This document shows positions 1 to 20,514 of a DNA stretch of 20,514 nucleotides, in pieces (position 1 is the stretch's first letter; each line of letters starts with the position of its first letter). The notes below the pieces were generated by a model that had not been told where the DNA came from, searched no databases, and saw nothing but the letters and a program-made list of their open reading frames with translations. The position numbers and the translations under genes are program-made. This DNA comes from a virus, in the IMG/VR virus record IMGVR_UViG_3300034115_000025, positions 1 through 20,514 of that record; one strand, given 5' to 3'.

Positions 1-1123
1 ACAGGGCTTGCGACGCGGCCGTGTAGTCGGCGCGCAGGGCGAGTTTCGCGAACTCGTCGTAGCCCTTGAGGCAGTTATTGACGATGCCCCAAAAGAGCCA
101 ATGAAGCTGATGCCAGTGTCCGCAGATCACGGTGTCTACCTTCTGCCCGACCTTGGCATAGGACTTGATGATCTTCATGAACCCGCGGATGATTGGCCCA
201 AGCGCGCCAATGTGTCCGTCGCCGCCCTTGACGCCCATGCTGTCGCCGTGCGTGAGCAAGTACCAGTGCCCTAGCACGCAGAAGCGAACGTCGGTTCCGG
301 TCGCCACGGTGAACGTGAAGCGGTTGTCTCCAATATCTTTGAAGTATTGTTCAAGCTGGCAATACAGGTTCCACTCATACGACGTGGTGACGCGCGACTT
401 CATGCGCGGCTTCATCGTCGTGCGCCCGTGGTTGCCTACGACACACGGCACATAGATGCTGGCACCAGGGAACGCGTCCGCTATCTGCACCAGGGCCGCT
501 ATGATCAATCCGCGCAGATTGCTGATGCACTCCAGTGGCCGCATCGGCGATGTGTCGGCCAACTCTGGATGGATATCGCCCGTGATCATGTCGCCGCCGA
601 GGCATACGACAATGCCGAACGGTTTCACTACTTGCTTGCGGATCAGCTTGATCGTGGTCGTCACAAGATGCTGAATACGGCGTTCCGCAATAGCGGGGTT
701 GAACTCGTTGAGCCCATCGGTCTCGGACTTCTTTACGATTTCGCCATAGTGCCAATCGCTCCAGATCGTCATCGGGACGCCCGGCGTATTGTCGATGGTG
801 CCCTTCGTGGTCAACCACTTTGGCGGATCGGATGGCTCACGGGCGAGGCCGAAAATCTCCTCGCGAATGTCACTTGCTTCGAGACTTGTGGCGTCCGCGT
901 CTTTCAACTTTCGGACGAGCACTTTGTTTTCGACTTGGAGCTTTTGCAGTGGGTCCACGATCTTTGTGTTCACCGTCAGCCCGCGTTGCTTTGCGGCTTC
1001 GACGTGCTCGCGTATTGTCGAGCGGTTGATCCCCAGCGCCGGGATTGCTTTCCTTACGGACCCGGCCTCTCTTAGCACTTGCAGGATGTGAACCAATTCC
1101 GCATCCGTCTTCCGGTCGCCCAT
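1..1123 (-). CDS. HTH-metallophosphoesterase, 3' end cut by window edge
   Basis: Calcineurin-like metallophosphoesterase, 374 residues visible with no stop before the window edge. Residues about 9-48 look like a helix-turn-helix (alanine/glycine-rich helix, then NRSTIREHVEAA). A short charged, possibly coiled stretch follows at 58-78. The phosphoesterase motifs come in the family order: SDWHYGE (D123, H125), GGDMITGD (D178), GNHGR (N231, H232), THGD (H292, D294) and CGHWH (H336, H338), a complete metal-binding set. Start ATG at 1123 is chosen because GAGGAG lies 8 nt upstream on the minus strand. HTH plus phosphoesterase occurs in other phage replication modules; the substrate is unknown (cyclic nucleotide, DNA end or phosphoprotein are all possible). 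It overlaps the RuvC-like gene by 254 bp in another frame. The family call is firm, the function is not. Confidence 0.88.
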   Translation of the reverse strand, partial: MGDRKTDAELVHILQVLREAGSVRKAIPALGINRSTIREHVEAAKQRGLTVNTKIVDPLQKLQVENKVLVRKLKDADATSLEASDIREEIFGLAREPSDPPKWLTTKGTIDNTPGVPMTIWSDWHYGEIVKKSETDGLNEFNPAIAERRIQHLVTTTIKLIRKQVVKPFGIVVCLGGDMITGDIHPELADTSPMRPLECISNLRGLIIAALVQIADAFPGASIYVPCVVGNHGRTTMKPRMKSRVTTSYEWNLYCQLEQYFKDIGDNRFTFTVATGTDVRFCVLGHWYLLTHGDSMGVKGGDGHIGALGPIIRGFMKIIKSYAKVGQKVDTVICGHWHQLHWLFWGIVNNCLKGYDEFAKLALRADYTAASQAL

Positions 1124-1598
1124 CGTTTGAACTCCTCGCGTTTGATATGGTGTAGAATAAACCGCAGATCGCGTCAGCCTCGTGCTCATTAGGCTCCGTG
1201 TCGGCGAATGCCAATAGGTCGGCCTCGCAAAGCAACCGCTTCGCTGCCACAATAATCTCAGGCTTCTTCGCGGCGCCACTGCCGGTCGCCCACTTCTTGA
1301 TGGTCTGTGGGTCCATGTCCACAACAGGGAAGCCGTGAAGCTGTGCATTCTTCTCCACGAACGCAGCTTGACCCCACAGTGAACGCGTGGCGGCTTGACC
1401 GCGGGCGAAGGGGCGCTCGAAGCCCACAACATCGACCATCAGTCCGCGCAACTGTGCATCAAGAACAATGTCTGTACGCAGCAAGCGCGCCGGCCTATTA
1501 GCCTCCGTCGTGAAGTCGAAGTGTCCGAACTCGATTGAGCCGTTCGCATTGTGCGCCCACCCCATTGTGCTGCCAATGTCATACCAGATGACTTTCAT
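870..1598 (-). CDS. RuvC-like Holliday junction resolvase with basic C-terminal tail
   Basis: 242-aa RNase H-fold endonuclease of the RuvC type, expected to cut four-way or branched DNA during phage recombination and before packaging. Acidic residues sit where the family needs them: D7 in the first strand (WYDIGS), E61 (GFERPF) and the late helix NEHEADAICG (E138, H139, D142). The domain should finish near residue 155, giving a typical phage RuvC length. The frame nevertheless stays open for 84 more residues (159-242), very rich in Arg, Lys and Ser, entirely inside the phosphoesterase gene. Start ATG at 1598 overlaps the stop of the 38-aa gene (TGATG), with AAGGTG a few bases upstream. The tail may be real or may mark a lost stop codon or a sequence error. 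RuvC-fold call good, tail uncertain. Confidence 0.8.
   Translation of the reverse strand: MKVIWYDIGSTMGWAHNANGSIEFGHFDFTTEANRPARLLRTDIVLDAQLRGLMVDVVGFERPFARGQAATRSLWGQAAFVEKNAQLHGFPVVDMDPQTIKKWATGSGAAKKPEIIVAAKRLLCEADLLAFADTEPNEHEADAICGLFYTISNARSSNDGRPEDGCGIGSHPASAKRGRVRKESNPGAGDQPLDNTRARRSRKATRADGEHKDRGPTAKAPSRKQSARPKVERRGRHKSRSK
1132..1137 (-). promoter_or_regulatory. Shine-Dalgarno fixing the phosphoesterase start
   Basis: GAGGAG on the minus strand, 8 nt before the ATG at 1123. It lies inside the RuvC-like coding frame. It supports initiation of the phosphoesterase here rather than at a later ATG, and so makes the long overlap with the RuvC-like frame real at the sequence level. Confidence 0.7.
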
Positions 1599-1714
1599 CA
1601 CAGCACCTTGTCGATTGCATTCATCACTTCCCGCACTATCCACCACATGACGCCTGCGGTCACAATCGCCATGAATACAACGATGGCAATTAGTACAATG
1701 ATGAATATAATCAT
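1598..1714 (-). CDS. 38-aa single-span membrane protein
   Basis: Small gene between the DNA polymerase and RuvC-like genes, 38 aa. Residues 2-26 are almost purely hydrophobic (MIIFIIVLIAIVVFMAIV, then TAGVMWWIV), a clear transmembrane helix, followed by a short charged tail ending NAIDKVL. It starts 9 nt after the polymerase stop, and a GAGGG Shine-Dalgarno lies at the end of the polymerase gene about 7 nt upstream. Its TGA overlaps the ATG of the next gene. This tight fit supports a real gene despite its size. Function unknown. It is not placed like a holin (no endolysin nearby); phage membrane micro-proteins often alter host envelope or membrane proteins, but nothing here shows that. Confidence 0.72.
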   Translation of the reverse strand: MIIFIIVLIAIVVFMAIVTAGVMWWIVREVMNAIDKVL

Positions 1715-1723
1715 GGGTGGCCC

Positions 1724-3844
1724 TCATTTCCTGTAACGCCCGCCTGACCAACAATCTGCATCCACCGGGACATTGCGCTCGACCGCCCATGCAGGGCGAT
1801 CTCTCATAATCTGCTTGAGCCTATCTGCGCTTGAGTGCGCTGTCAAGGGCTCCGCAACAATCTCGTCATGCACCGTCAGCACCACGGGCAACTGCTCTTT
1901 CTCGCACTTGAACATCGCGTGAACGAGAAGATCGCGGGCCGATGCCGATGCTAAGTTCTCCGTCAGCAATCCGCCGTACGCGTTGACACGCTTCCAGCGC
2001 CCCGACTTCTGCGCCTCGAATGTCCACGCCGGACGCACGTCGTCTTTGTCCCACGGCATAGCCATGCGCTCGGCGCGCGGGTTTGCATAGTACAGCTTAC
2101 GGCCGGATGGCAGACGCGCGGTCAACCAAATGTCTTCGATAGCGTAGCGCACTCCGTATGCCTCGTGCGGCGTCCGTTCCCACACCGTATCGCAGGCCGC
2201 CTCCTCCAGTCCCTTCCACAGCTTTGGAACCTCGGGTGCCCACTCCTTGCGGTATGTGTCGATCACTGTCTTGCAAAACTCCAGGCTCTCTTTCGGAGCG
2301 TATTGCTTCTGGAACTTCTTGTGGCCCATGCCGAAGCCGGCGCCGAGCACGGTCTGTTTCCCAACGGTGCGCTTCTCCGGGTCTTTCTTCTTGTCAACCT
2401 CCTGCTTGTAGATCGTCTTGGCCATATCAATGTACACGTCCAACTTCGGGTCTTCTAGGAGCTTTACCTTGTCGTGTTGGCCGGCGAACGCGAGCACAAG
2501 GCAAGCCTCGATGCGGGCGAAGTCGCCGACGTTCAGATCGCGGCCCTCGCTCGCGATGATGCAGTGACGGAGGCCACTGATCACGACTTCAATCGGGTCT
2601 CCGTACATCATGGCGATGTGGCCGGCATCGCGCGTCATAATGGCGTCGTAGACCACTTCCCACTCGACGTTCACGCGCTCGAACTGTTGCGTCTTCTCAT
2701 TCCAAGTCTCGTGTTTCAGTGTAGGGCGCGGGAAGTTGTGGGGCTGAAAGAGACGCCCGGCCCACCGACCAGTAGTTGCTGCGTTATACTGCACAGCCCC
2801 ACGCACTCTGCCGTCAGAGCCGATACAGGCCCGGATTGACTTGAGCTTTTTGATTGAAGAAGACCCTGCGATGCGACGGATTTCGAGCGCACGTCGTACG
2901 TGGTTAGGCAACTGAAACAGTGAACTCTCGCTATATGCGTCTTCACTACCTTCTTCGGCGAGAGAGAAATCGTCTTCGTCGTCTTCATTGGATGCTCCAT
3001 CATGGATCGGGTTCGCGCCCAATAGTGAAATGATCGTCTCCTTACGGAGGTTCGGCTTCCATACCTTATCGCCTTCGACAAAATCGAATGAACCGATGTT
3101 GACGCCTTCGCCCTGGACCCACTTCAGCACCTTGTCGCGCTGCCCGACATTGAACCCTGTCAACGTCTTGAACTCGGCGAGCAACGGGTTCATCGCCTGT
3201 TCAATAATGTCTTCGCACGCTGAAACGAATGTAGGGTCGATGCGAACACCGCGTTCGTTGATGCGTTGGTCCAAGAGCCATACGTTTCGTTCACCCATTT
3301 GAAAAGGACCAACGCGGTGGAACAGTTCAACTTCTGTGCGAACGTCTTGGGCACAGTAGGAGTAAACCTTGGCCATAGTCTCCGGGGTTCGGTCATGGTA
3401 GCCCTTCTTTGGTTTCGAGAGTGATATGGTCAGTTTCGAACCGACGTTATCTTTCTGTTCGCTTAAGCGCAAAACGATTGCGGCCTTGTCGAGCTTGAGC
3501 GGCAAAGACTTCATCGCGCACACCGCTTGCGTGCAGTGCCAGCGTGAGTTCGGTATATCTGGCCACCCAAACGACTTCATCATGATATTGCGCCAGATCG
3601 CTTTCTCAAAGCCGGCCGCCTGCGCGACGAATAGCGCTGTGGTCTGGTTGATAAGGATCGTGAGCGGATGATCGGGGCGATACAGCACGTCTTCGCCGGG
3701 GATGTTAAGCGGAGAATTTCCGTCAACGCTGTAGTCTAAGCAGAGAATTTCCGTTGTTGGGTCTTCCGAATAGACCCATGCGCCGGCCTTCTTCAGGTCG
3801 CAGGCGCTCGCGGTCTCAAAGTCCATGACGACATAGTTGCTCAC
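1724..3844 (-). CDS. Family A (Pol I-type) replicative DNA polymerase
   Basis: 706-aa DNA polymerase with a 3'-5' proofreading domain and no 5'-3' exonuclease domain, the usual phage arrangement. Exonuclease: DFET (D8, E10) near the start, AGFEKAIW in the middle, YCAQDV as the third site. Polymerase: TTGRWAG, motif A GDFARIEACL (D441, E446), motif B RTVGKQTVLGAGFG (R492, K496) and motif C VHDE (H659, D660, E661). In motif B the residue matching E. coli Phe762 is Leu500, and Phe504 replaces Tyr766. The start is a GTG; upstream only a weak GGATAAG is seen, so the ATG at codon 7 is possible but would sacrifice most of the first exonuclease strand. It lies after the deoxyribosyltransferase-like gene and a 158-bp gap. 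Very confident. Confidence 0.95.
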   Translation of the reverse strand: MSNYVVMDFETASACDLKKAGAWVYSEDPTTEILCLDYSVDGNSPLNIPGEDVLYRPDHPLTILINQTTALFVAQAAGFEKAIWRNIMMKSFGWPDIPNSRWHCTQAVCAMKSLPLKLDKAAIVLRLSEQKDNVGSKLTISLSKPKKGYHDRTPETMAKVYSYCAQDVRTEVELFHRVGPFQMGERNVWLLDQRINERGVRIDPTFVSACEDIIEQAMNPLLAEFKTLTGFNVGQRDKVLKWVQGEGVNIGSFDFVEGDKVWKPNLRKETIISLLGANPIHDGASNEDDEDDFSLAEEGSEDAYSESSLFQLPNHVRRALEIRRIAGSSSIKKLKSIRACIGSDGRVRGAVQYNAATTGRWAGRLFQPHNFPRPTLKHETWNEKTQQFERVNVEWEVVYDAIMTRDAGHIAMMYGDPIEVVISGLRHCIIASEGRDLNVGDFARIEACLVLAFAGQHDKVKLLEDPKLDVYIDMAKTIYKQEVDKKKDPEKRTVGKQTVLGAGFGMGHKKFQKQYAPKESLEFCKTVIDTYRKEWAPEVPKLWKGLEEAACDTVWERTPHEAYGVRYAIEDIWLTARLPSGRKLYYANPRAERMAMPWDKDDVRPAWTFEAQKSGRWKRVNAYGGLLTENLASASARDLLVHAMFKCEKEQLPVVLTVHDEIVAEPLTAHSSADRLKQIMRDRPAWAVERNVPVDADCWSGGRYRK

Positions 3845-4002
3845 ATGCTTATCCGGTTATCGCCTATGACTGCTAGCCGTGGGGTATTCCCAGTCTCCGT
3901 CGTAAAGCTCCCGGTAAGTCGGGCTTTCCGTTTCGCCACCGATCCCAAGCAGGGAGCGGAAGGAGGCAGCGACTTAGGGAATGGCAGATCAGCATGAAGG
4001 GT
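3845..4002. other. Gap between polymerase and deoxyribosyltransferase genes
   Basis: 158 bp with no convincing gene. On the minus strand a 40-codon reading frame (3873-3995) has an ATG but no Shine-Dalgarno and an unremarkable composition. Short inverted repeats are present (GACTG at 3868-3872 with CAGTC at 3891-3895; CCCG/CGGG around 3911-3924), so the leader of the polymerase message may be folded. Confidence 0.4.
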
Positions 4003-4365
4003 TCATTGGGATACCGCACGGGCAGCGGCCTCAAGAGATTGGCATACAACCGTTGCCATCTGCCGATGCATTCCGAAATACCCAGACCGCCAATCGCCCA
4101 AAATTTCATCGCAAAAGACGATGCGCTTTCCCAGGGCGTATGCGTATCCAAGCTCAATAGAGAGGCCGAAACCGCTAGGATTGGAAGAACTCATATGAAC
4201 CAAGAGACAATCGCATTTTCGCACGGCTTCCAAATCCCGCGCCGTGTAGATCACAGGATCAGGAGTGCTCCAAGAACGTGGGTCAAGAATTTCGTGCCCG
4301 TCCAGAAATGGCACAACTTTGTCTTGCCATCCGTCTTTCATGCCGCCAGCGAGGTAGATAATCAT
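4003..4365 (-). CDS. Nucleoside 2-deoxyribosyltransferase-like protein
   Basis: 120-aa protein of the nucleoside 2-deoxyribosyltransferase/DUF4406-like fold, which moves or hydrolyses the N-glycosidic bond of (deoxy)nucleosides. Seen: N-terminal strand and loop IIYLAGGM (residues 2-9), a DPRSW segment, TARDLEAVRKCDCLLVHM with D44 in the usual substrate-contact position, and SIELGYAYALGK with E71 at the expected catalytic glutamate, followed by RIVFCDE. Length fits the short phage members. ATG at 4365 has AAGGAG at good spacing. In a replication operon it most likely serves nucleotide salvage or supply of a modified base precursor; the second is speculation, as no partner base-modifying enzyme is in view. 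Confidence 0.8.
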   Translation of the reverse strand: MIIYLAGGMKDGWQDKVVPFLDGHEILDPRSWSTPDPVIYTARDLEAVRKCDCLLVHMSSSNPSGFGLSIELGYAYALGKRIVFCDEILGDWRSGYFGMHRQMATVVCQSLEAAARAVSQ

Positions 4366-4488
4366 GGTCGAAACTCCTTATTGCCCAACAAATCTTAAGA
4401 GAAGTGGGAACCGCCCGGCCGTTTATCTCGCAGGGACGGTGCGCGAGCGGTTCCCTTACCGTCTGACTTTCATCCGTACCCGGACTAC
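4366..4488. other. Gap with 9-bp inverted repeat
   Basis: 123-bp gap in the leftward operon. A perfect inverted repeat GGGAACCGC (4406-4414) and GCGGTTCCC (4447-4455) encloses 32 nt with further short self-complementarity. The transcript could form a long-range stem 40 nt before the Shine-Dalgarno of the deoxyribosyltransferase-like gene. There is no U-tract on the minus side, so it is not a canonical intrinsic terminator. No gene found. Confidence 0.5.
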
Positions 4489-5151
4489 TTAGGACAGTAT
4501 CTCGTCGTCAATCGCACTACCCGTGGGGTCTTCGGTCGAGACCGATCCTTGGTAGTGCTTGAACGCTTCAGACGCGGACGGCGCACCAATGCGCTGCCCG
4601 TCTTTGATCCACATCACCTGATCGAGATAGGCCGTGACGCCAGCCTTCGCTTCTCCATCATCCGAAACCGGATCGTATGCGACGAAATTCCACTGCGGCA
4701 GAACGAATGCACCGCTGTAGAACTTGTTCCACGCTGTCGCCAGCGTGGGACCATCGAGTTCCTGCGGAGCCTTGTTCGGTCCCTGATAGATGCTCAGGCG
4801 CGGTTGATACTTCGAGCGAGCCGTGACGACAAGCGTGCTGGCGTCTCCGTAGAAGGAGCCATCTTTGCCGTTCGTCTTGGACTTCGCCGCTTCCTTGGCG
4901 CCGTCGCTGAAGGGGAACTTCAGGGTCTTCAGGTTAACACCCGGCCACTTGGCGCGGGCAACTTCCACAGCCTTCTTCTTGATCGCTGCGATATCCTCGG
5001 GGTTCGTAACGAGAATGCGGGCACCGAACTTCGGCTCACCCCGCGGCTTACCGTTCTTCATGACAGCTTTCGCTTCCTTGAGGTTCGGAAACACCATCTT
5101 CGCTTCCTTGTTGGGCGAGAAACGCCCGTCAACTTTTGTTCCTTCGGTCAT
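4489..5151 (-). CDS. DUF2815 / Enc34-like single-stranded DNA-binding protein
   Basis: 220-aa protein recognised as the DUF2815 family, whose characterised member (phage Enc34) is an OB-fold ssDNA-binding protein. Marks: the early segment with FPNLKEAKAV and KFGARILV, the conserved lysine-rich region before KFPFSDG, the block DGSFYGD then LVVTARSKYQP, YSGAFVLPQWNFVAYD, and an acidic C-terminus (DPTGSAIDDEILS) such as SSBs use to dock partners. Start ATG at 5151 has TTGGAG 7 nt upstream; a longer open frame to 5328 only shadows the next gene. It lies 16 nt after the DUF2800 nuclease gene, the standard pairing in phage replication modules. Likely coats exposed strands for the polymerase and nuclease. 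Confidence 0.88.
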   Translation of the reverse strand: MTEGTKVDGRFSPNKEAKMVFPNLKEAKAVMKNGKPRGEPKFGARILVTNPEDIAAIKKKAVEVARAKWPGVNLKTLKFPFSDGAKEAAKSKTNGKDGSFYGDASTLVVTARSKYQPRLSIYQGPNKAPQELDGPTLATAWNKFYSGAFVLPQWNFVAYDPVSDDGEAKAGVTAYLDQVMWIKDGQRIGAPSASEAFKHYQGSVSTEDPTGSAIDDEILS

Positions 5152-5167
5152 TTGTAGTCTCCAATCG

Positions 5168-6388
5168 CTAGGACGCATCCGACGTGGCGTCCGGTCGGTA
5201 ATGAGCGAACGCGTCGGCCGCTCGCAACACCTTTGCCTCAACACGCTTGTCGCCGGCAGAAGCGACCGTGTAGCCCGTGTCGGGCGAATATGCATATTCC
5301 TTTGTGAACTTCTTTCCTTCGGGGCCAATCTTGTCGATCTCGGCCGGCGACTTCAATTCCTTAGGATTATACGCGTCGTCACCAAACTTGACAACCGCTT
5401 TCTCCTGTCCCTCGGCCGTCAATACGCGGATCGACCTCTTTGGCACCAGCTTGGCACCGGGGATTGTGTTGCCGCGGTTGAGCCGGCGAAACACTTCCTC
5501 CTCATACGCTTTCTTGCCCATCATGGCGGGGCCAACAAGTTCGTAGTTCATGCCAAGCTGTTCGTCCGTCATGTTGGCCAATATCGTGGGGTTCGCCTCA
5601 CTCAGGGCCTTGTAGAGAGACTGGATCATTGGGCACGCAACGATGGCCGGGCAGAAGCGGCACCATTCACCCGGCGTTAGGGTCGCGTCGATCTCGGCCG
5701 CCTCCATTGCCGGCTTCAGTACCTTGTCGCGCCACGCTAGAAGATCGCTTGCGTCCATCTCAAACACACGCACAGGCCCATCGGGGTGGAAGGCACGCGG
5801 CTGCACGATCCTCATGCGAACGCGGCGGGCGCCGAGTACCTTCGCCAGGACGCCGACTGCATAGTATTTCAACTGCGGGTTCTCAATGGCGTCAACCGCG
5901 ATGCCGACCCCGTACTTGATGTCGGTCACGTCTAGGATTGTGACGCCGTTGATCACGTCGTCGGCGGTGCCGAAGAAGCTGGGATGGATTGTCTTGTCGC
6001 TGACGTGCTCCTCGATCAAGTGCGAGACGTTGCTAGGCCCCATGCCGTTCTTTGCGGCAGCGTCGTGGTGCTCGGCGACGAGACCGCGGATCACAGTGAG
6101 GTAGGTCTGCACCGCATCGGCCATCTCCTGATCCACAACTACACCATAGAACTGCATACCAACGCATTCCCAAGTGTCAATGTCGGTCTTGAGGCAATGC
6201 GCCGCAAGCTCGTGTGCCGCAGTTCCGGCCTTTGCAAACTCGCTGTCTTCGCGCTCAGGCAATGCGCCCAGTGACGCGAGCAACTTCAGAAGCACATTGC
6301 TGCCGGGGCAATTCATCCACCGCTCTGCGCCGGATGCGCCGAGGGGCGAATGTTCCGGTTGATCTGCCATGCGTGCAATAGCGCTCAT
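5168..6388 (-). CDS. DUF2800 RecB/Cas4-like PD-(D/E)XK nuclease
   Basis: 406-aa nuclease of the DUF2800 family. The RecB/Cas4-like motifs are all visible: GTAAHEL with H59, GTADDVI with D143/D144, VTDIKYG with D156 and K158, and PQLKYYA with Q172 and Y175. One cysteine near the N-terminus (NCPGS, C27) and three late ones (WCRFCPAIVACP; C243, C246, C252) match the Fe-S arrangement of AddB and Cas4. It would process DNA ends for recombination together with the following ssDNA-binding protein. ATG at 6388 is chosen because AAGGAGGG lies just upstream; the open frame extends 25 codons further without a site. A 100-nt leader with an 11-bp inverted repeat precedes it. Strong call. Confidence 0.88.
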   Translation of the reverse strand: MSAIARMADQPEHSPLGASGAERWMNCPGSNVLLKLLASLGALPEREDSEFAKAGTAAHELAAHCLKTDIDTWECVGMQFYGVVVDQEMADAVQTYLTVIRGLVAEHHDAAAKNGMGPSNVSHLIEEHVSDKTIHPSFFGTADDVINGVTILDVTDIKYGVGIAVDAIENPQLKYYAVGVLAKVLGARRVRMRIVQPRAFHPDGPVRVFEMDASDLLAWRDKVLKPAMEAAEIDATLTPGEWCRFCPAIVACPMIQSLYKALSEANPTILANMTDEQLGMNYELVGPAMMGKKAYEEEVFRRLNRGNTIPGAKLVPKRSIRVLTAEGQEKAVVKFGDDAYNPKELKSPAEIDKIGPEGKKFTKEYAYSPDTGYTVASAGDKRVEAKVLRAADAFAHYRPDATSDAS

Positions 6389-14495: not shown

Positions 14496-14677
14496 GGCCG
14501 TTCTCCTTTCGAGTGCGGTTTATCGTTCACGCGCGCAATGTGCCGAGTGACTGAATGACGCCACACATGATACGCTTCGCTGTACTTGACCGGGCGCTTG
14601 CCATGTTTTTGATATGGCGATACGCCCGATCTCCGCTCGCGACGCTTGCGGCTTTGATAACTACTGCGCTTGGCCAT
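14492..14677 (-). CDS. 61-aa highly basic hypothetical protein
   Basis: 61 aa with more than a third Arg, Lys and His: MAKRSSYQSRKRRERRSG, then PYQKHGKRPVKYSE and WRHSVTRHIARVND. Such a composition fits a nucleic-acid-binding peptide. ATG at 14677 has GAGG 7 nt upstream and lies 17 nt inside the end of the 120-aa gene; its stop overlaps the ATG of the pentapeptide gene. A longer frame (to 14707) lacks a site and overlaps more of the neighbour. Being next to a predicted acidic DNA-mimic-like protein is suggestive but unproven. Confidence 0.7.
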   Translation of the reverse strand: MAKRSSYQSRKRRERRSGVSPYQKHGKRPVKYSEAYHVWRHSVTRHIARVNDKPHSKGERP

Positions 14678-15023
14678 CGGCGCCCTCATATTCGACCGCA
14701 AGAGCAATCAATGCGGCGGCAACCGTTTTGCTACGCTCGAAGCCTTCCGGAATTTCGTATAACGCTTCGTCGTTGCCTGCGATGTCGGCAAGACGGACGA
14801 AGATAACAAGTGCTTCATGAGGGGTTATGCCAAGTTGTTCCGCCGCAGTGCGCGGTAGGACGCTTGCATAACCGCCCAAATCATACCGAAACTCAAGTTT
14901 GTCTTCCAGAATGCCGGCTTGAACCGCCCGGCCAAGCGCACAGGCCTTGAATGAGCCCATTTCCTCATTCGTAATGCCGTTACAAAGTTCTGCGATCAAT
15001 CGCAGTTTTTTCGTATCAGCCAT
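14661..15023 (-). CDS. Unknown 120-aa acidic protein
   Basis: Not recognised. 120 aa, largely helical: KKLRLIAELCNGITNEEMG, ACALGRAVQAGILEDKL, PRTAAEQLGITPHEALVIFV and an acidic C-terminus (VEYEGADGQAQ). ATG at 15023 has TGGAG about 8 nt upstream, in a leader that carries one copy (A) of the 57-bp hairpin element. It follows the 131-aa gene, from which the element separates it. Function unknown. Confidence 0.75.
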   Translation of the reverse strand: MADTKKLRLIAELCNGITNEEMGSFKACALGRAVQAGILEDKLEFRYDLGGYASVLPRTAAEQLGITPHEALVIFVRLADIAGNDEALYEIPEGFERSKTVAAALIALAVEYEGADGQAQ

Positions 15024-15039
15024 TTTCTGTCTCCAGTTT

Positions 15040-15096
15040 GCAGCAGGATTGCTGCGGTGGGGACACTAGCACCGCTAATGTCCCCTCCGCAACAAT
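15040..15096 (-). repeat. Copy A of duplicated hairpin leader element
   Basis: 57 bp matching copy B at 15511-15567 at 50 positions. In the leftward transcript GCGGAGGGGACA pairs with UGUCCCCACCGC (15054-15090; one A-A mismatch, 13-nt loop), and a second small stem (GCAGC/GCUGC) follows before the Shine-Dalgarno of the 120-aa gene. It begins directly after the stop of the 131-aa gene. Confidence 0.8.
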
Positions 15097-15492
15097 CTAA
15101 CGACGGCCCCGGTGAGCATTCAACATTGCGTTCAATTCCTTTTTTATGCGCCTCGCTGCGTCACCTTTCCAGCTTGTCGCATTTGAAAGGAAATACGCGA
15201 CCACAGAGGCTGCATTGTCTTCGCCGTATCTGCCGCCGAGAGTATCAAGACTTTTCATTGCGCCAAGATATGGCCGCGCTGCGTAATTCACTGCCGACAT
15301 TACGCGTCTATGGTCGTACCATGCTTCCTCAATCTCGCGGGCGATAATGTGTATCGGCCGTCCATTGGGATAATCTGCATTTGTGTAGGCCGACGCAAGC
15401 GCGGGAACTGTGCGACCGCGTTTCTCTTGCTCGGCTGTGAACGGCGTTTTCGGCCCAGTGGCTTTGGGATTGTAAGATACGTGCGATGTCAT
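15097..15492 (-). CDS. Unknown 131-aa basic protein
   Basis: Not recognised. 131 aa: a disordered-looking start (SYNPKATGPKTPFTAEQEKR), then HIIAREIEEAWYDHRRVMSA, YAARPYLGAMKSLDTLGG and a helical basic C-terminus (RRIKKELNAMLNAHRGRR). The pattern YLGAMKSLDTLGGRYGEDNAA... SNATSWKGDAARRIKKEL is that of a phage protein family seen in several proteobacterial phages, in my impression, with no known role. ATG at 15492 has TGGAG 9 nt upstream, in the leader holding copy B of the hairpin element. Copy A follows its stop. Confidence 0.76.
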   Translation of the reverse strand: MTSHVSYNPKATGPKTPFTAEQEKRGRTVPALASAYTNADYPNGRPIHIIAREIEEAWYDHRRVMSAVNYAARPYLGAMKSLDTLGGRYGEDNAASVVAYFLSNATSWKGDAARRIKKELNAMLNAHRGRR

Positions 15493-15510
15493 GTCTGTTT
15501 CTCCAGGATA

Positions 15511-15567
15511 GCAGCAACATTACTGCGGTGGGGACACTAGCACTGCCAATATCCCCTCCGCAAGAAT
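15511..15567 (-). repeat. Copy B of duplicated hairpin leader element
   Basis: Second copy of the 57-bp element. The main stem is 15525-15561. Relative to copy A, one base of the 5' arm is changed from C to U, keeping a U-G pair, and the small second stem also keeps a U-G pair. It lies between the stop of the 63-aa gene and the start of the 131-aa gene. Confidence 0.8.
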
Positions 15568-15569
15568 GC

Positions 15570-15761
15570 CTATCGCCGGGCCGGGCCGCTCTTACAGGCG
15601 GCAATAAACTTGTGTTTGTTGAAACGCGCATTTGTTCCCGCGGCGACTACTGCCATGCCGTTCACGTCTTCTTGCCACTGAGCGCAAGCAGCCGTATCAT
15701 CCATTGGCGGACGCGACCACGCGAGCGCTCGCGCGAGCAATTCAAAATGTTTTCTTGTCAT
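15570..15761 (-). CDS. 63-aa phage protein of a common unknown family
   Basis: 63 aa: MTRKHFELLARALAWSRP, then QWQEDVNGMAVVAAGTNARF and NKHKFIAACKSG. The MTRKHFE...L..A start with a late NPRFD/NxRFxxxxFIAAC segment is familiar from small phage and plasmid proteins of unknown role; I believe this belongs to that family. ATG at 15761 overlaps the stop of the 55-aa gene (ATGA), with CTGGAG 8 nt upstream. A longer frame (26 codons more) only shadows the gene before it. Confidence 0.75.
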   Translation of the reverse strand: MTRKHFELLARALAWSRPPMDDTAACAQWQEDVNGMAVVAAGTNARFNKHKFIAACKSGPARR

Positions 15762-15925: not shown

Positions 15926-16142
15926 GGTCCTCCAACTCCCTCTTATTTTGGCCTATGGCTATTAGCGCATGGACGTTTGCGATCTCCCCTACGCCCTTAG
16001 GCTACGGGGAACGCCAAAAGCGTCCTACGCTTAGCATAGGAACGGACGAAAGTAAAGAGCAAAGCGATCACGAAAGCGTGAGGTAATAATGTTGCGTGCT
16101 GCCCTCGCCCCTCCTCTCGATTTGGGGCCAAATCACGAAATG

Positions 16143-16172
16143 TTACAGTATATTTCAATGTTGACACTGTAA
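16143..16172. promoter_or_regulatory. Candidate operator: 7-bp inverted repeat
   Basis: TTACAGT (16143-16149) and ACTGTAA (16166-16172) form perfect arms around 16 nt. A TTGACA (16161-16166, plus) and a TATACT (16147-16152, minus) lie inside, so a protein bound here would cover promoter-like elements on both strands. Confidence 0.45.
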
Positions 16173-16185
16173 ACACATGCAGCTT

Positions 16186-16240
16186 GTGTTGAAATAATAT
16201 ATTCCACCACATCTAGTGTTGAAATAATCTATCAACAGTG
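16186..16240. repeat. Two 30-bp-spaced GTGTTGAAATAAT repeats with a dyad
   Basis: GTGTTGAAATAAT occurs at 16186-16198 and again at 16216-16228, exactly 30 bp apart (about three DNA turns). The second copy is half of a dyad, TGTTGA (16217-16222) and TCAACA (16232-16237). The first copy also supplies a possible -35 TTGAAA (16189-16194) with TCTAGT 17 nt on (16212-16217), a weak rightward promoter candidate. Confidence 0.45.
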
Positions 16241-16449
16241 ATCGTTGTGTACAACCGAGTAATACTCACTTCGAGCATAAGGGGGTGGGGTGGCGGGTGG
16301 AGCCGCCGTCGCGGTCGCCGGCGGGAGGTTCGGCCCAGCAGACTTTTTCGCGCAGCCTCTCAAAGCGGGCTGTTAACCATGAAAGCGCGGATTGACTTCA
16401 GAGAGCCTACAGTGTATTCCATACTGGCAAGCATGTGGAGCGACAGAAA

Positions 16450-17067
16450 ATGGCAGTGCGCAGGGGAAACCCCGAGAATTTGCCCGCAATCTTCGTGGAC
16501 GCCACAACTTTAGGGCCAGCAATGCTGGAACTCACTGAAAAGCAACAGAAATTCGTTGTTGCGCTTCTGGAGACAGGGGGCGACAACGAGAGCCGAGCCG
16601 CGATGATGGCAGGATATGGGACCGGCTACGAGACACGATCTTACGAACTCGCCCGCAACCCGAAGGTGTTGGCCGCGATCCGTGAGGAAGCAGACAAGCG
16701 TTTGCGGTCGGGCGCACTGCTGGCGTCGAGCAAGCTGATCGAGATCGCGAAGAAGGACACGCACAAGGATCAGCTAAAGGCAATTATAGAACTCTTGAAC
16801 CGCGGCGGCCTCATCGTGCAGACGCAGCACAAGGTTATTGTAGAAGACAACCGCAACGACAACGAGATCATTGCGCGTGTCGCGGCATTCGCGCGAGAGC
16901 TTGATATTGATCCTGTGAAACTTCTCTCGAAGGTCGGCGTCGATTACGTTGACGGCCAATTCACTGAAGTGACGCAGAACGTGTTATCCGCCCCGATTGA
17001 GATTGATCCGTTCGCCGATATGATGACGCCGGCCGCGACACAGGAGGATGACGATGACGACGCTTGA
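16450..17067 (+). CDS. terS: Terminase small subunit
   Basis: 205-aa DNA-recognition subunit of the packaging motor. The N-terminal HTH region carries the family pattern ELTEKQQKFVVALLETGG, then ESRAAMMAGYGTG and ELARNPKVLAAIREEADKRL (30-84), the usual A..AGY...LL.NP.V arrangement. A central helical stretch (SSKLIEIAKK, QLKAIIELLNRGG) would oligomerise, and the acidic tail (ATQEDDDDDA) probably contacts the large subunit. ATG at 16450 is preferred because GGAG lies 9 nt upstream; a GTG at 16435 is also in frame but overlaps that site. Its end overlaps the large-subunit start. First gene of the rightward module. Confident from motif and neighbour. Confidence 0.86.
   Translation: MAVRRGNPENLPAIFVDATTLGPAMLELTEKQQKFVVALLETGGDNESRAAMMAGYGTGYETRSYELARNPKVLAAIREEADKRLRSGALLASSKLIEIAKKDTHKDQLKAIIELLNRGGLIVQTQHKVIVEDNRNDNEIIARVAAFARELDIDPVKLLSKVGVDYVDGQFTEVTQNVLSAPIEIDPFADMMTPAATQEDDDDDA
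17042..17047 (+). promoter_or_regulatory. Shine-Dalgarno that decides the large terminase start
   Basis: AGGAGG abuts an ATG at 17048 with no spacer and lies 6 nt before a second ATG at 17054. Only the second has workable spacing, so translation should begin at 17054. Confidence 0.7.
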
Positions 17068-18535
17068 TCCGCGGCAACAGAAAATGTTGCGGCAGATGGA
17101 GCACGATCTTTCCGTGCTTACAGAGAAGAAGCTGTTCAACGCAATGAAACTATACAAGCCATATCCGAAGCAAGAGGAGTTTCATCGTGCCGGAATACAA
17201 TTCACGGAGCGGTTGCTTCGCGCGGCCAATCAGGTTGGTAAGACCTACTGCGGCGCAATGGAGATTACCTATCACTTGACCGGATTGTATCCGGTGTGGT
17301 GGAAGGGCCGACGCTGGAACCGCGCAACAAAATGGTGGGCCTCCTCGAAGACCGGCCTGGTGACGCGCGACAACGTGCAAAAATATCTGGTAGGCGAACC
17401 GGGCGTCGTCGCCAAGGTCGGCACCGGGGCAATTCCGAAACGCTGCATCCTAGATATATCGAATGCGCGCGGCGTCGATGCGCTGATCGACACGGTTCAG
17501 GTGCAGCACTTCAGCCCCGAGGGTGTCAAGGATGGCATCAGCATCGTGCGCTTCAAGTCATATGACCAGGGCCGCGAGAAGTGGCAGGGCGAAACTCTCG
17601 ACGGAGTTTGGTTTGACGAGGAGCCTGAAGAGGACATTTACGGCGAAGGCACTACGCGCGTATCCGCGACAGGCGGCATGGTGTACCTGACATTCACCCC
17701 GCTCAAGGGCGTCTCGAACGTCGTCAAGCGGTACATGGAGAACAAAGACGGCGGCACACACACGACACTGATGACGATGGACGACGCCGCGCACTTCACG
17801 CCCGACAAGAAGGCGGCGGCCCTCGCACGCATGTTGCCTCACGAGCGCGAGGCCCGCAGCAAGGGCGTCCCTATCATGGGCGAAGGCCGCATCTTTCTGT
17901 GTACGGAGGAAAGCATAACCTGTCAGGGGATTGCTCCGCTGCCGCGGCACTGGCGCTACATTTGGGGAATAGACTTTGGCGGCGTCTCCGACAAGTCGCA
18001 TCCGTTCGCGGCCACGTTATTGGGCATCGATGTGGACGCGGACATAATTCATGTCGTAGCGTGTGTGCGGATGAAGCCAGAGTTCGGCGTTACGTTCCGC
18101 CCACTGGAGCACGTTCAGCCCATGCTCGTGTTAGGCCGTATACCCGTAGCATGGCCCCAGGACGGTACAGCGCACGAGAGTTCGGGCGAAACTCTGGCGG
18201 CCGCCTACAAGAAGCACGGGCTCATGATGCTGGACGAACACGCCACTTTCAAGGATGGCGGCCTCTCGACGGAGGCCGGAGTTTCAGAGATGGACGAGCG
18301 CATGGTGCAGGGGCGCTGGAAGGTGTTCTCCCATCTGTCTCAGTGGTTTGAGGAGTACCGGAGCTACCACCGCGAGGATGGCAAAATCGTCAAGGTAGAC
18401 GATGACTTGCTTTCGGCCAGCCGTGTGGGTATGATGATGCGACGCTTTGCCCGGCTTCTGCCCGAGTACGATCCTCGGGTGAAGACGCCTCGGGTGCAAA
18501 TGGCTTCGGACGTAGACTTCGATGTGCTAGGGTGA
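17054..18535 (+). CDS. terL: Terminase large subunit (packaging ATPase-nuclease)
   Basis: 493-aa motor that pumps DNA into the head and cuts the concatemer. ATPase: RAANQVGKT (56-64, Walker A variant) and GVWFDEEPEED (Walker B D188, catalytic E189/E190), with TFTPLKG as the coupling motif. Nuclease: WGIDFGG (D307), PQDGTAHE (D370) and a late DDDLLSASR aspartate set, the three acidic sites of the RNase H-like fold. The architecture fits the terminase families of T7/P22-type podoviruses. Starts inside the end of terS (14-nt overlap) and ends one base before the next start region. Very confident. Confidence 0.94.
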   Translation: MTTLDPRQQKMLRQMEHDLSVLTEKKLFNAMKLYKPYPKQEEFHRAGIQFTERLLRAANQVGKTYCGAMEITYHLTGLYPVWWKGRRWNRATKWWASSKTGLVTRDNVQKYLVGEPGVVAKVGTGAIPKRCILDISNARGVDALIDTVQVQHFSPEGVKDGISIVRFKSYDQGREKWQGETLDGVWFDEEPEEDIYGEGTTRVSATGGMVYLTFTPLKGVSNVVKRYMENKDGGTHTTLMTMDDAAHFTPDKKAAALARMLPHEREARSKGVPIMGEGRIFLCTEESITCQGIAPLPRHWRYIWGIDFGGVSDKSHPFAATLLGIDVDADIIHVVACVRMKPEFGVTFRPLEHVQPMLVLGRIPVAWPQDGTAHESSGETLAAAYKKHGLMMLDEHATFKDGGLSTEAGVSEMDERMVQGRWKVFSHLSQWFEEYRSYHREDGKIVKVDDDLLSASRVGMMMRRFARLLPEYDPRVKTPRVQMASDVDFDVLG

Positions 18536-18540
18536 ATAAT

Positions 18541-18795
18541 ATGGCTGCGGGATTTCTCAGCAACATGCTTGAACTGGTGAAAGGCAAAGTTGCCAAGAAA
18601 CGCGCCGACGCGCTAGCAGCGTCCGGTGCCGATCCGTCGAAGCCTGTGCCGGTCGAGCAGCAGCCTTTGCCGGAACTCATGACCGCGGCCACTACGCTGG
18701 CGCCTCCTGTCGATCCCATGAAGAAGCGCCGCAATGGCAGCATGGCTGCGCTTACGTTGCAAGGCCGTCAACCGCTTTCGGGAGGGTTACTCTAA
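18541..18795 (+). CDS. Unknown 84-aa protein between terminase and portal
   Basis: 84 aa. N-terminal helix AGFLSNMLELVKGKVAKKRADAL, then a Pro/Ala/Thr linker (SKPVPVEQQPLPELM... LAPPVDP) and a basic glycine-rich end (MKKRRNGSMAALTLQG). ATG at 18541 has AGGG 8 nt upstream; a GTG at 18532 overlapping the terL stop is possible. Its stop overlaps the next ATG (TAATG). Position between terL and portal is typical for small accessory head or packaging proteins of podoviruses, but no family is recognised. Confidence 0.75.
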   Translation: MAAGFLSNMLELVKGKVAKKRADALAASGADPSKPVPVEQQPLPELMTAATTLAPPVDPMKKRRNGSMAALTLQGRQPLSGGLL

Positions 18796-18998
18796 TGGCA
18801 ATGCTTGATGCAATCAGTGCCCTAATGAAGGGCAAACTCTCGGCCTCCGACAAAAAGAAATTGGACGACCGCGCCAAGAAGCAAAGCGCCGAGGCCGCTG
18901 CGAAAGCGAAGCCCGGCGACTTGGAGAAGAATGTGACCGGCACCGCGTCGCCATTCTCGTATCTCCTGAACATGGCGAAGAAAAAGAAAGCTCCGTAA
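18795..18998 (+). CDS. Unknown 67-aa lysine-rich protein next to the portal
   Basis: 67 aa, helical and charged: DAISALMKGKLSASDKKKLD, then an Ala/Lys helix (DRAKKQSAEAAAKAKPGD) and a Lys-rich end (NMAKKKKAP). Start at 18795 follows GGAGGG by 8 nt and overlaps the previous stop by one base. It resembles its 84-aa neighbour in having a short hydrophobic-basic first helix (FLSNMLELVKGKV against DAISALMKGKL), so the two may be distantly related. Function unknown; perhaps an internal head or scaffold-like peptide. Confidence 0.75.
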   Translation: MAMLDAISALMKGKLSASDKKKLDDRAKKQSAEAAAKAKPGDLEKNVTGTASPFSYLLNMAKKKKAP

Positions 18999-18999
18999 C

Positions 19000-20514
19000 A
19001 TGGTGCAGACCTACGACGAGATGATCGGCTATGAGATTTGCCGCGACGGTGAACAGATGATCACCGAGCGCAGCACGTACTCGAACCATTGCGAGGAAGT
19101 GGCTCGCTTCGTGATCCCGACGTACAAGAATACTTTCTTCCCCGGCAGCTACAATGTGATGGGCCAAAAGAACACGCAAGAGCAGATCGACAGCACGGCT
19201 GCGCTTGCGCTCACTCGCTTCGCTGCGATCCTTGATAGCTTGCTAACGCCGCGCAATGCGCAGTGGCACACACTCGAAGCGTCGAACCCCGATCTCCAGA
19301 AGATCAGGGCGGTGCGCCTTTGGTTTGAAGACACCACGCGCCGGCTGTTCAAGCTGCGCTATGCTCCGACCGCGAACTTCTCCTCACAGAACCAGAACGT
19401 GTTTCAGTCGCTCGGTGCCTTCGGCAATGGGCCGATGTTCATCGACCGGCTCTCGGGAACCAAGGGCTTCCGCTACAAAGCGATCCCGATGGGTGAAATC
19501 TACTTCAAGGAAAACCACCAGGGCATCATCGACACAGCGTTGCGCTACTTCCGCATGACGGCGAAGCAAGCGGTCGATCAGTTCGGCCCCGCGAAGTTGC
19601 CCGAGGCGATCATCAAGAAGAATATCCCCGGCAGCGACCAGACGATGTTCTGGTTCTATCACATGATCCGGCCGCGCGGCTTCGACTATGATCCGCGCCG
19701 GCTTGACGCGAAGGGCAAAAAGTTCGCCAGCTTCTATGTGGCCGTCGAAGGTAAGAAGCTCGTCAGCGAGGGCGGCTACAATACATTCCCGATGCCGACC
19801 TCTCGGTACATGGAGGCACCCGGCGAAGTCTACGCGCGCGGTCCCGCTATGCTGGTGCTGCCGGCGATCAAGACCCTTCAGGTGGAAAAAAAGATTGTGT
19901 TGACGCAGGGCCACCGCACGGTGTCCCCGGTGTTGCTCTCGCACGATGATGGTATCACAGGCTTCTCGATGAAGCCGGGTGCCCTGAACCCTGGCGGCGT
20001 CAACAAGGATGGGCGCGCTCTGGTGCAGCCTCTCCCGGTCGGCAACGTCATGGTTGGAAAAGACATGATGGATGACGAGCGCGCCGTGATCAACGATGCG
20101 TTCCTCGTGAACCTGTTCCAAGTCCTGCTCAACGATCCGAAGGTGATGACGGCGACGCAAGTCATCGAGATGGCGAACCAGAAGGGCATCCTCTTGGCGC
20201 CTACGATTGGTAAGCAGCAGTCTGACTATCTTGGACCCATGATCGAGCGCGAACTTTCGCTGGGCTTGGACATGGACCTTTTTCTGCCGATGCCTCCCGA
20301 ACTGATAGAGGCGCAGGGTGAATATGAAGTCATCTACACTTCGCCCATGTCGCGTCTCGCGCGTGCTGAAGAGAACAGCGGCTTCCTTCGCAGTGTTGAA
20401 GCTGCGCTGGAGATCGTCAACATCACACAAGACCTGAGCCATTTGGACCCATACGATTTCGAAACGGCCATACCGGAAATGTCTATTAACAATGGCACCC
20501 CTGAGCGGGGGATG
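19000..20514 (+). CDS. Head-to-tail connector (portal), T7 gp8-like, 3' end cut
   Basis: 505 residues visible and no stop; T7 gp8 is about 536 aa, so little is missing. The T7-type portal forms the dodecameric ring through which DNA enters and to which the tail binds. Seen: an N-terminal block with EEVARFVIPTYKNTFFPGS, STAALALTRFAAILDSLLTP (a family hallmark), QWHTLEASN, the QNVFQSLGAFGNGPMFID segment, ARGPAMLVLPAIKTLQVEKK, and TATQVIEMANQKGILLAPTIG with LGPMIERELSLGLD near the end. ATG at 19000 follows the 67-aa stop by one base and lacks a strong Shine-Dalgarno (only purine-rich GAAG), so it may rely on coupling. This is the best evidence for a podovirus. Confidence 0.93.
   Translation, partial: MVQTYDEMIGYEICRDGEQMITERSTYSNHCEEVARFVIPTYKNTFFPGSYNVMGQKNTQEQIDSTAALALTRFAAILDSLLTPRNAQWHTLEASNPDLQKIRAVRLWFEDTTRRLFKLRYAPTANFSSQNQNVFQSLGAFGNGPMFIDRLSGTKGFRYKAIPMGEIYFKENHQGIIDTALRYFRMTAKQAVDQFGPAKLPEAIIKKNIPGSDQTMFWFYHMIRPRGFDYDPRRLDAKGKKFASFYVAVEGKKLVSEGGYNTFPMPTSRYMEAPGEVYARGPAMLVLPAIKTLQVEKKIVLTQGHRTVSPVLLSHDDGITGFSMKPGALNPGGVNKDGRALVQPLPVGNVMVGKDMMDDERAVINDAFLVNLFQVLLNDPKVMTATQVIEMANQKGILLAPTIGKQQSDYLGPMIERELSLGLDMDLFLPMPPELIEAQGEYEVIYTSPMSRLARAEENSGFLRSVEAALEIVNITQDLSHLDPYDFETAIPEMSINNGTPERGM

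Follow-up and report, generated by a model that had tools for sequence, protein, structure and literature searches.

A structured intercistronic RNA leader with a fixed base and a freely varying inner stem in three groups of phages

A 57-nucleotide element that occurs twice on the minus strand of a viral genome record belongs to a polycistronic phage mRNA, in which it forms a cis-acting RNA structure between the stop codon of one gene and the ribosome-binding site of the next. Comparison of ten copies, of which eight were retrieved from six other viral contigs, shows that selection acts on the hairpin as RNA, in the sense of the coding strand, and that its inner stem need only pair. We are nearly certain that this is a selected intercistronic RNA element. 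The leader recurs in two otherwise unrelated phage groups, where its central part has a new sequence and yet folds. It therefore seems to be a gene-control element, not described before, that acts as RNA, and we class it as a new family among the phage intercistronic RNA leaders, a kind already known. As a whole, the best explanation is a selected RNA that may also serve as a ribosome-responsive switch, and this combined reading seems to us about as probable as its negation.

Two copies of a long hairpin at gene junctions

The window, i.e., the whole stretch of DNA analysed here, is a virus record of 20,514 bases, whose large terminase subunit (17048-18535) is similar to those of Rhizobium phages and of P22-like phages. 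A sequence-only reading of this stretch had reported two segments, copies A and B, that are identical at 50 of 57 positions and each of which fills the gap between a stop codon and the Shine-Dalgarno (SD) sequence of the next gene on the minus strand; both statements are borne out (88% identity over 57 nucleotides; Table 1). The similarity continues past this segment and through the SD (∼81% over ∼85 bp), so that the repeated unit comprises the hairpin and a ribosome-binding leader. The leaders read ACTGGAGACAGAAAATG and CCTGGAGAAACAGACATG, and the tail after the stem is CCTGCTGC. When the gene led by copy A was used as bait in the viral contigs, it returned zero relatives. The same gene cluster also encodes a pentapeptide-repeat protein (Pfam PF00805; 13941-14495, minus strand), the DNA of which is a long run of similar repeats.

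Both copies are predicted to fold into a 49-nucleotide hairpin, H1, in which an outer stem of 10 bp is followed by an A.A mismatch, an inner stem of 12 bp, and a triloop. The main stem proposed in the sequence-only reading does exist, but its 13-nucleotide loop is itself paired (UAGC/GCUA plus one U-G), showing that the structure was under-drawn, and five further pairs extend it outward to the full hairpin. Differences between the copies had been placed mainly in loops; not all of them are silent, as outer pair 4 is G-C in copy A and C.U in copy B. Folded with their flanks, copies A and B reach -45.9 kcal/mol (z -8.1) and -35.6 kcal/mol (z -4.2), and 0 of 200 and 1 of 200 shuffles, respectively, fold as well as the real hairpin. 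A hairpin scan of the window ranks the two H1 structures first, far above the third. The plus strand gives a poorer fold because G-U pairs turn into A-C.

Table 1. Positions of the element and of neighbouring features in the window
Feature	Position	Strand	Remarks
Copy A, element	15040-15096	-	
Copy A, H1 (49 nt)	15048-15096	-	fold -37.1 kcal/mol, z -6.4; top-ranked hairpin of window; covariation
Copy A, H1 outer arms	15087-15096 / 15048-15057	-	A.A mismatch 15086/15058
Copy A, H1 inner arms	15074-15085 / 15059-15070	-	loop GGU 15071-15073
Copy A, H2	15040-15055	-	GCAGCA (15050-15055)-AUCC-UGCUGC (15040-15045); constrained folds; same H2 in G010, L058, L065_2
Stop codon upstream of copy A	15097-15099	-	TAG
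SD of gene after copy A	15031-15034	-	GGAG; ATG at 15023
120-aa gene led by copy A	14661-15023	-	no family found
131-aa gene between copies A and B	15097-15492	-	PHROG 13953, function unknown; homologues in L003 and G010; stop codon TAG abuts copy A (0 nt)
Copy B, element	15511-15567	-	
Copy B, H1	15519-15567	-	predicted fold, window hairpin scan, inner-stem pairing
Copy B, H1 outer arms	15558-15567 / 15519-15528	-	
Copy B, H1 inner arms	15545-15556 / 15530-15541	-	loop AGU 15542-15544
Copy B, H2	15511-15526	-	GCAGUA-AUGU-UGCUGC; pairing kept by U-G
Stop codon upstream of copy B	15570-15572	-	TAG
SD of gene after copy B	15501-15504	-	GGAG; ATG at 15492
63-aa gene preceding copy B	15570-15761	-	stop codon 2 nt before element

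Further copies and covariation in other phages

L003, a viral contig of 5.9 kb, shares 98% identity with the window over 4.5 kb, beyond which the two sequences part. Its two copies of the element lie on either side of its homologue of the 131-aa gene. The region of 98% identity (window 15947-20514) extends from where the leftward early region starts across the packaging genes and ends abruptly where the early genes begin, marking a mosaic boundary. A covariance model, R1, built from the four copies of the window and L003 retrieved a fifth one (E value of 1.7e-16) from G010, a 44.8-kb phage with ∼70% identity in shared regions, where the element lies between different neighbour genes. The hairpins of L003_A and G010 fold with z-scores of -9.1 and -9.2.

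More distant copies came from pattern searches. The pattern that retrieved L058 and L065 had just two fixed parts, a left-hand GCGG and a right-hand CGCAGYAATnnTGCTGC, leaving the inner pairing and the left-arm ATTNTT unselected; both contigs nevertheless show this ATTNTT, their inner stems, although new in sequence, are completely paired (GAGGGCCC/GGGCCCTC in L058 and GGGCGGCACC/GGTGCCGCTC in L065), and in both the element directly follows a stop codon. L065 carries two copies 333 nucleotides apart that differ in their inner stems, and a second pattern added L075 and L085, both relatives of L065. The record of L058, representing group 2, encodes a DNA polymerase that shares 40% identity with its counterpart in Caulobacter phage Kuura, while group 3 phages possess a tail sheath. 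No protein common to the three phage groups was found at an E value of ≤1e-6 among open reading frames (ORFs) of at least 80 amino acids from these partial contigs; with ORFs of at least 30 amino acids, a single 68-amino-acid stretch joins groups 1 and 2. The full set of ten copies is small, and several are related to one another.

Other searches yielded no further members. An exact two-arm pattern with fixed inner bases had no match in the viral contigs, and the ten matches of a relaxed pattern in genome contigs, none of them convincing, are about the number expected by our estimate. Two matches in 398 Pseudomonadota genomes were not counted as members: one has a different inner segment, and the other is the same sequence as in six viral contigs (L077, L078, L081, L086, L088, and L089), which were set aside; they carry ATTGTTGCGG...CCGCAGCAAT, fold less strongly in the inner part, and have no leader that could be recognised. 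These six and one bacterial genome (L106) share a conserved 13-bp inverted repeat, GGATTGTTGCGGG...CCCGCAGCAATCC, probably unrelated to the leader. No copy is present in Caulobacter phage Kuura or Rhizobium phage RHph_N3_2, which are related to two of the groups. The one weak match in RHph_N3_2 (L110:33838-33896; E value of 0.016) lies between convergent genes and was judged terminator-like. It is a strong hairpin (TGCGGAGGATG...CATCCTCCGCAGCA) located 2 nucleotides past a stop codon and perhaps acts as a bidirectional terminator.

Pairing within the inner stem is kept by compensating changes. In the ungapped alignment with G010, three inner pairs are changed on both sides (G-C to A-U, A-U to G-C, and C-G to G-C), as many as only 4 of 500 shuffles attain. 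The inner stems of the ten copies form 105 of 106 pairs, while arms exchanged between copies pair at 54 to 63%. Given that the inner arms were taken from folds, the fair control is shuffling, and between 0 and 2 of 2000 shuffles per segment fold as well. The two other phage groups have inner stems of altogether different sequence that nonetheless pair along their full length. The covariance search of related phages that had been proposed as a check thus uncovered paired substitutions, and the earlier suggestion of a selected RNA structure gains support both from G010 and from these unrelated groups.

The outer stem, ATTNTTGCGG...CCGCAGYAAT, is nearly fixed across groups. Pairs 1 to 3 and 5 to 9 are invariant in all ten copies, pair 4 is broken in three copies, and pair 10 is G-C or G-U. 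Pair 5 is U-G in every copy and never A-C when read in the mRNA sense, which is the orientation of all ten copies. Over the whole element we count ∼7 independent G-U wobbles against one A-C in this sense, as expected of an RNA and not of a DNA palindrome. Seven of the ten copies begin between -1 and +7 nucleotides from the upstream stop codon (0 in A, 2 in B, 3 in L003_A, 6 in G010, 0 in L058, 7 in L065_2, and -1 in L065_1). The exceptions are L003_B, where, unlike in other copies, an upstream 39-codon frame (L003:5341-5460) stops inside the upper stem of the hairpin; L085, where the upstream gene is 44 nucleotides away; and L075, which has no clear upstream gene. The proposal that the element was copied on its own largely holds: different gene pairs flank it in different phages, and protein similarity among the three groups is almost nil. 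In the window, though, the SD leader is part of what was duplicated.

Competing helices and possible modes of action

The second, smaller stem of the sequence-only reading (GCAGCA/UGCUGC, with a G-U in copy B) is present, but it competes with the outer stem. In this alternative hairpin, H2, GCAGCA of the 3' outer arm pairs with the UGCUGC of the tail, and since the same arm forms the outer stem of H1, the two structures are mutually exclusive. H2 can form in eight of nine complete copies, the exception being L085. In L065_1 and L075 the tail is shorter by 2 nucleotides, yet five H2 pairs and a 4-nucleotide loop are kept, and the G of the invariant U-G pair 5 makes a G-C pair in H2. Because the tail had been written into the pattern by which L058 and L065 were retrieved, it counts as independent evidence only in G010, L065_1, and L075. 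Constrained folds of 55- to 59-nucleotide pieces favour H1 in A, G010, L065_1, and L085, with a lead of ∼5 to 6 kcal/mol over the H2 fold in the first three; H2-containing folds win in L003_B, L058, L065_2, and L075; and the two are equal in the 59-nucleotide piece of copy B, whose minimum free energy fold includes H2 (-29.1 versus -29.0 kcal/mol for H1). As predicted by these folds, the helix conflict is real and its balance varies among copies. The arrangement is as expected of a translational switch with mutually exclusive hairpins, with two alternative helices that share one strand and are kept in homologues, while the SD stays exposed in the predicted folds.

On this basis, a ribosome-driven switch is a possible mode of action, to which we lend somewhat less than even credence. 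The 3' outer arm (GCAGCAAU) would choose one of two partners. In the free RNA, the long hairpin H1 would close, with the inner stem acting as a clamp that keeps the two outer arms together. A ribosome terminating on the upstream gene would cover the 5' outer arm, whereupon the 3' arm could pair with the UGCUGC tail just upstream of the next SD. A ribosome at a stop codon shields ∼10 nucleotides downstream, as known from toeprints, and in copy A and L058 these ∼10 nucleotides are exactly the 5' outer arm, so that upstream termination would favour H2. Downstream initiation, or processing between the genes, would then be tied to translation of the upstream gene. This putative mechanism has to contend with the dominance of H1 in A, G010, and L065_1, with L085, which lacks H2, and with the stop-codon exceptions L003_B, L075, and L085.

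A serious rival, though a less probable account that we regard as doubtful, is a processing or stabilising hairpin of the RNase III type, in which a host enzyme would cut or protect the two-turn duplex, leaving the upstream mRNA with a protected 3' end and the downstream mRNA with a 5' end near the SD. The near-continuous duplex of 22 to 24 pairs (about two helical turns), its intercistronic place directly after the stop codon, and an inner stem that is free in sequence but always paired all agree with this account, and the lack of a shared recognised phage protein among the three groups makes a host factor plausible. RNase III, however, needs neither an invariant 10-bp outer stem nor a fixed U-G or a conserved TGCUGC tail. 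In another rival account, a sequence-specific RNA-binding protein, coded by host or phage, would recognise the invariant base ATTNTTGCGG/CCGCAGYAAT on its sequence-free clamp and control early-gene translation or antitermination. The outermost A-U, U-A, and U-A pairs are absent from H2 but constant in all copies. Pairing by itself does not account for this constancy, which hints at a bound factor or added recognition. Repeated copies per genome and a position like that of the SAS/ESAS leaders (PMC3203893) fit as well. There are at most two copies per genome, though, and the protein comparison across groups gave no shared protein apart from the 68-amino-acid stretch of groups 1 and 2. Like the RNase III account, binding by a protein is a serious rival, and about as unlikely.

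Far less probable is an element acting at the DNA level, be it a miniature inverted-repeat transposable element or a DNA-binding site made of two 10-bp half-sites. This would suit the terminal inverted repeats (ATTGTTGCGG/CCGCAGCAAT), the presence of several copies, their differing neighbours, and the scatter over unrelated phages. We rejected both forms, as the flanks of the ten copies show no target-site duplication, the centres are wholly different but always self-complementary, the orientation relative to genes is single with G-U wobbles on the mRNA strand, and the tail and SD belong to the repeated unit. An intrinsic terminator or attenuator, suggested by a strong GC-rich hairpin directly after a stop codon, was likewise rejected as highly improbable, as no copy has a U-run after the stem and a terminator scan found none on the minus strand at the element. 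A CRISPR-repeat mimic was discarded because the inner part is not conserved.

Relation to known leaders

No Rfam 15 family matches at its gathering score (only chance microRNA matches far under threshold appeared), and BLAST of the region and three copies against annotated phages and plasmids gave no real match. Intercistronic hairpins of T7 early mRNA, irregular and ∼20 bp long, are RNase III sites present in several copies between stop codon and SD. Our element resembles them in place and size, but differs in that its 10-bp base and downstream tail are conserved in sequence across unrelated phages. The put antitermination RNAs of HK022 are two neighbouring, structurally constrained hairpins in two copies in early transcripts, a likeness that extends to the present pair of hairpins and copies; unlike put, these copies lie inside operons at gene junctions and not at the operon start, and lack an Rfam match. 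In ermC-type leaders, mutually exclusive hairpins form near the SD, and a ribosome on the upstream frame could shift their balance. The predicted folds place similar exclusive hairpins near the SD here, but do not hide it, and no inducer is known. Translational coupling has been reviewed (PMC12548453).

A close parallel in layout is given by the extended start-associated sequences (ESAS/SAS) of cluster K mycobacteriophages, in which imperfect inverted repeats recur shortly before the ribosome-binding site, at a subset of nonstructural genes of different families and in one orientation (PMC3203893). ESAS occurs in many copies with a fixed 13-bp SAS (GGGATAGGAGCCC) in one phage cluster only, and its authors found little support for mRNA pairing (PMC3203893). 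Here, by contrast, pairing is kept by compensating changes, there are one to two copies per genome, and three unrelated phage groups are involved. The description of ESAS as inverted repeats lacking support for RNA pairing therefore does not fit, and the 13-bp SAS, located 3 to 7 bp before the start codon, is not found in the leaders ACTGGAGACAGAAAATG and CCTGGAGAAACAGACATG.

Another repeated leader is present in the group 3 phages L095 (minus strand, 154-6020), L100 (99), and L101 (164-3862). It consists of a small hairpin with a conserved loop, CUUGCAA, and a variable stem, followed by AAATGGAGTCA ahead of the ATG, and stands at 13 gene starts, all on one strand. Its stem, read by eye, is apparently compensated, and it looks like an RNA-level analogue of SAS/ESAS.

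In its most far-reaching form, our reading would make the element a horizontally shared, bistable intercistronic RNA switch, a cassette of fixed base, free clamp, and tail that reads the terminating upstream ribosome and controls how the following gene is initiated or processed, and that has passed between unrelated phages, probably of alphaproteobacterial hosts, with no cognate phage protein accompanying it; that all of this holds jointly is a tentative and rather unlikely proposition. To our knowledge, structured RNAs that move between unrelated phages independently of coding genes have rarely been documented, and we know of no established role for repeated leaders such as ESAS. The present element is a compact case (∼57 nucleotides) with clear covariation and with one fixed and one free part, a design that would allow recognition by a protein, by RNase III, or by the ribosome to be distinguished.
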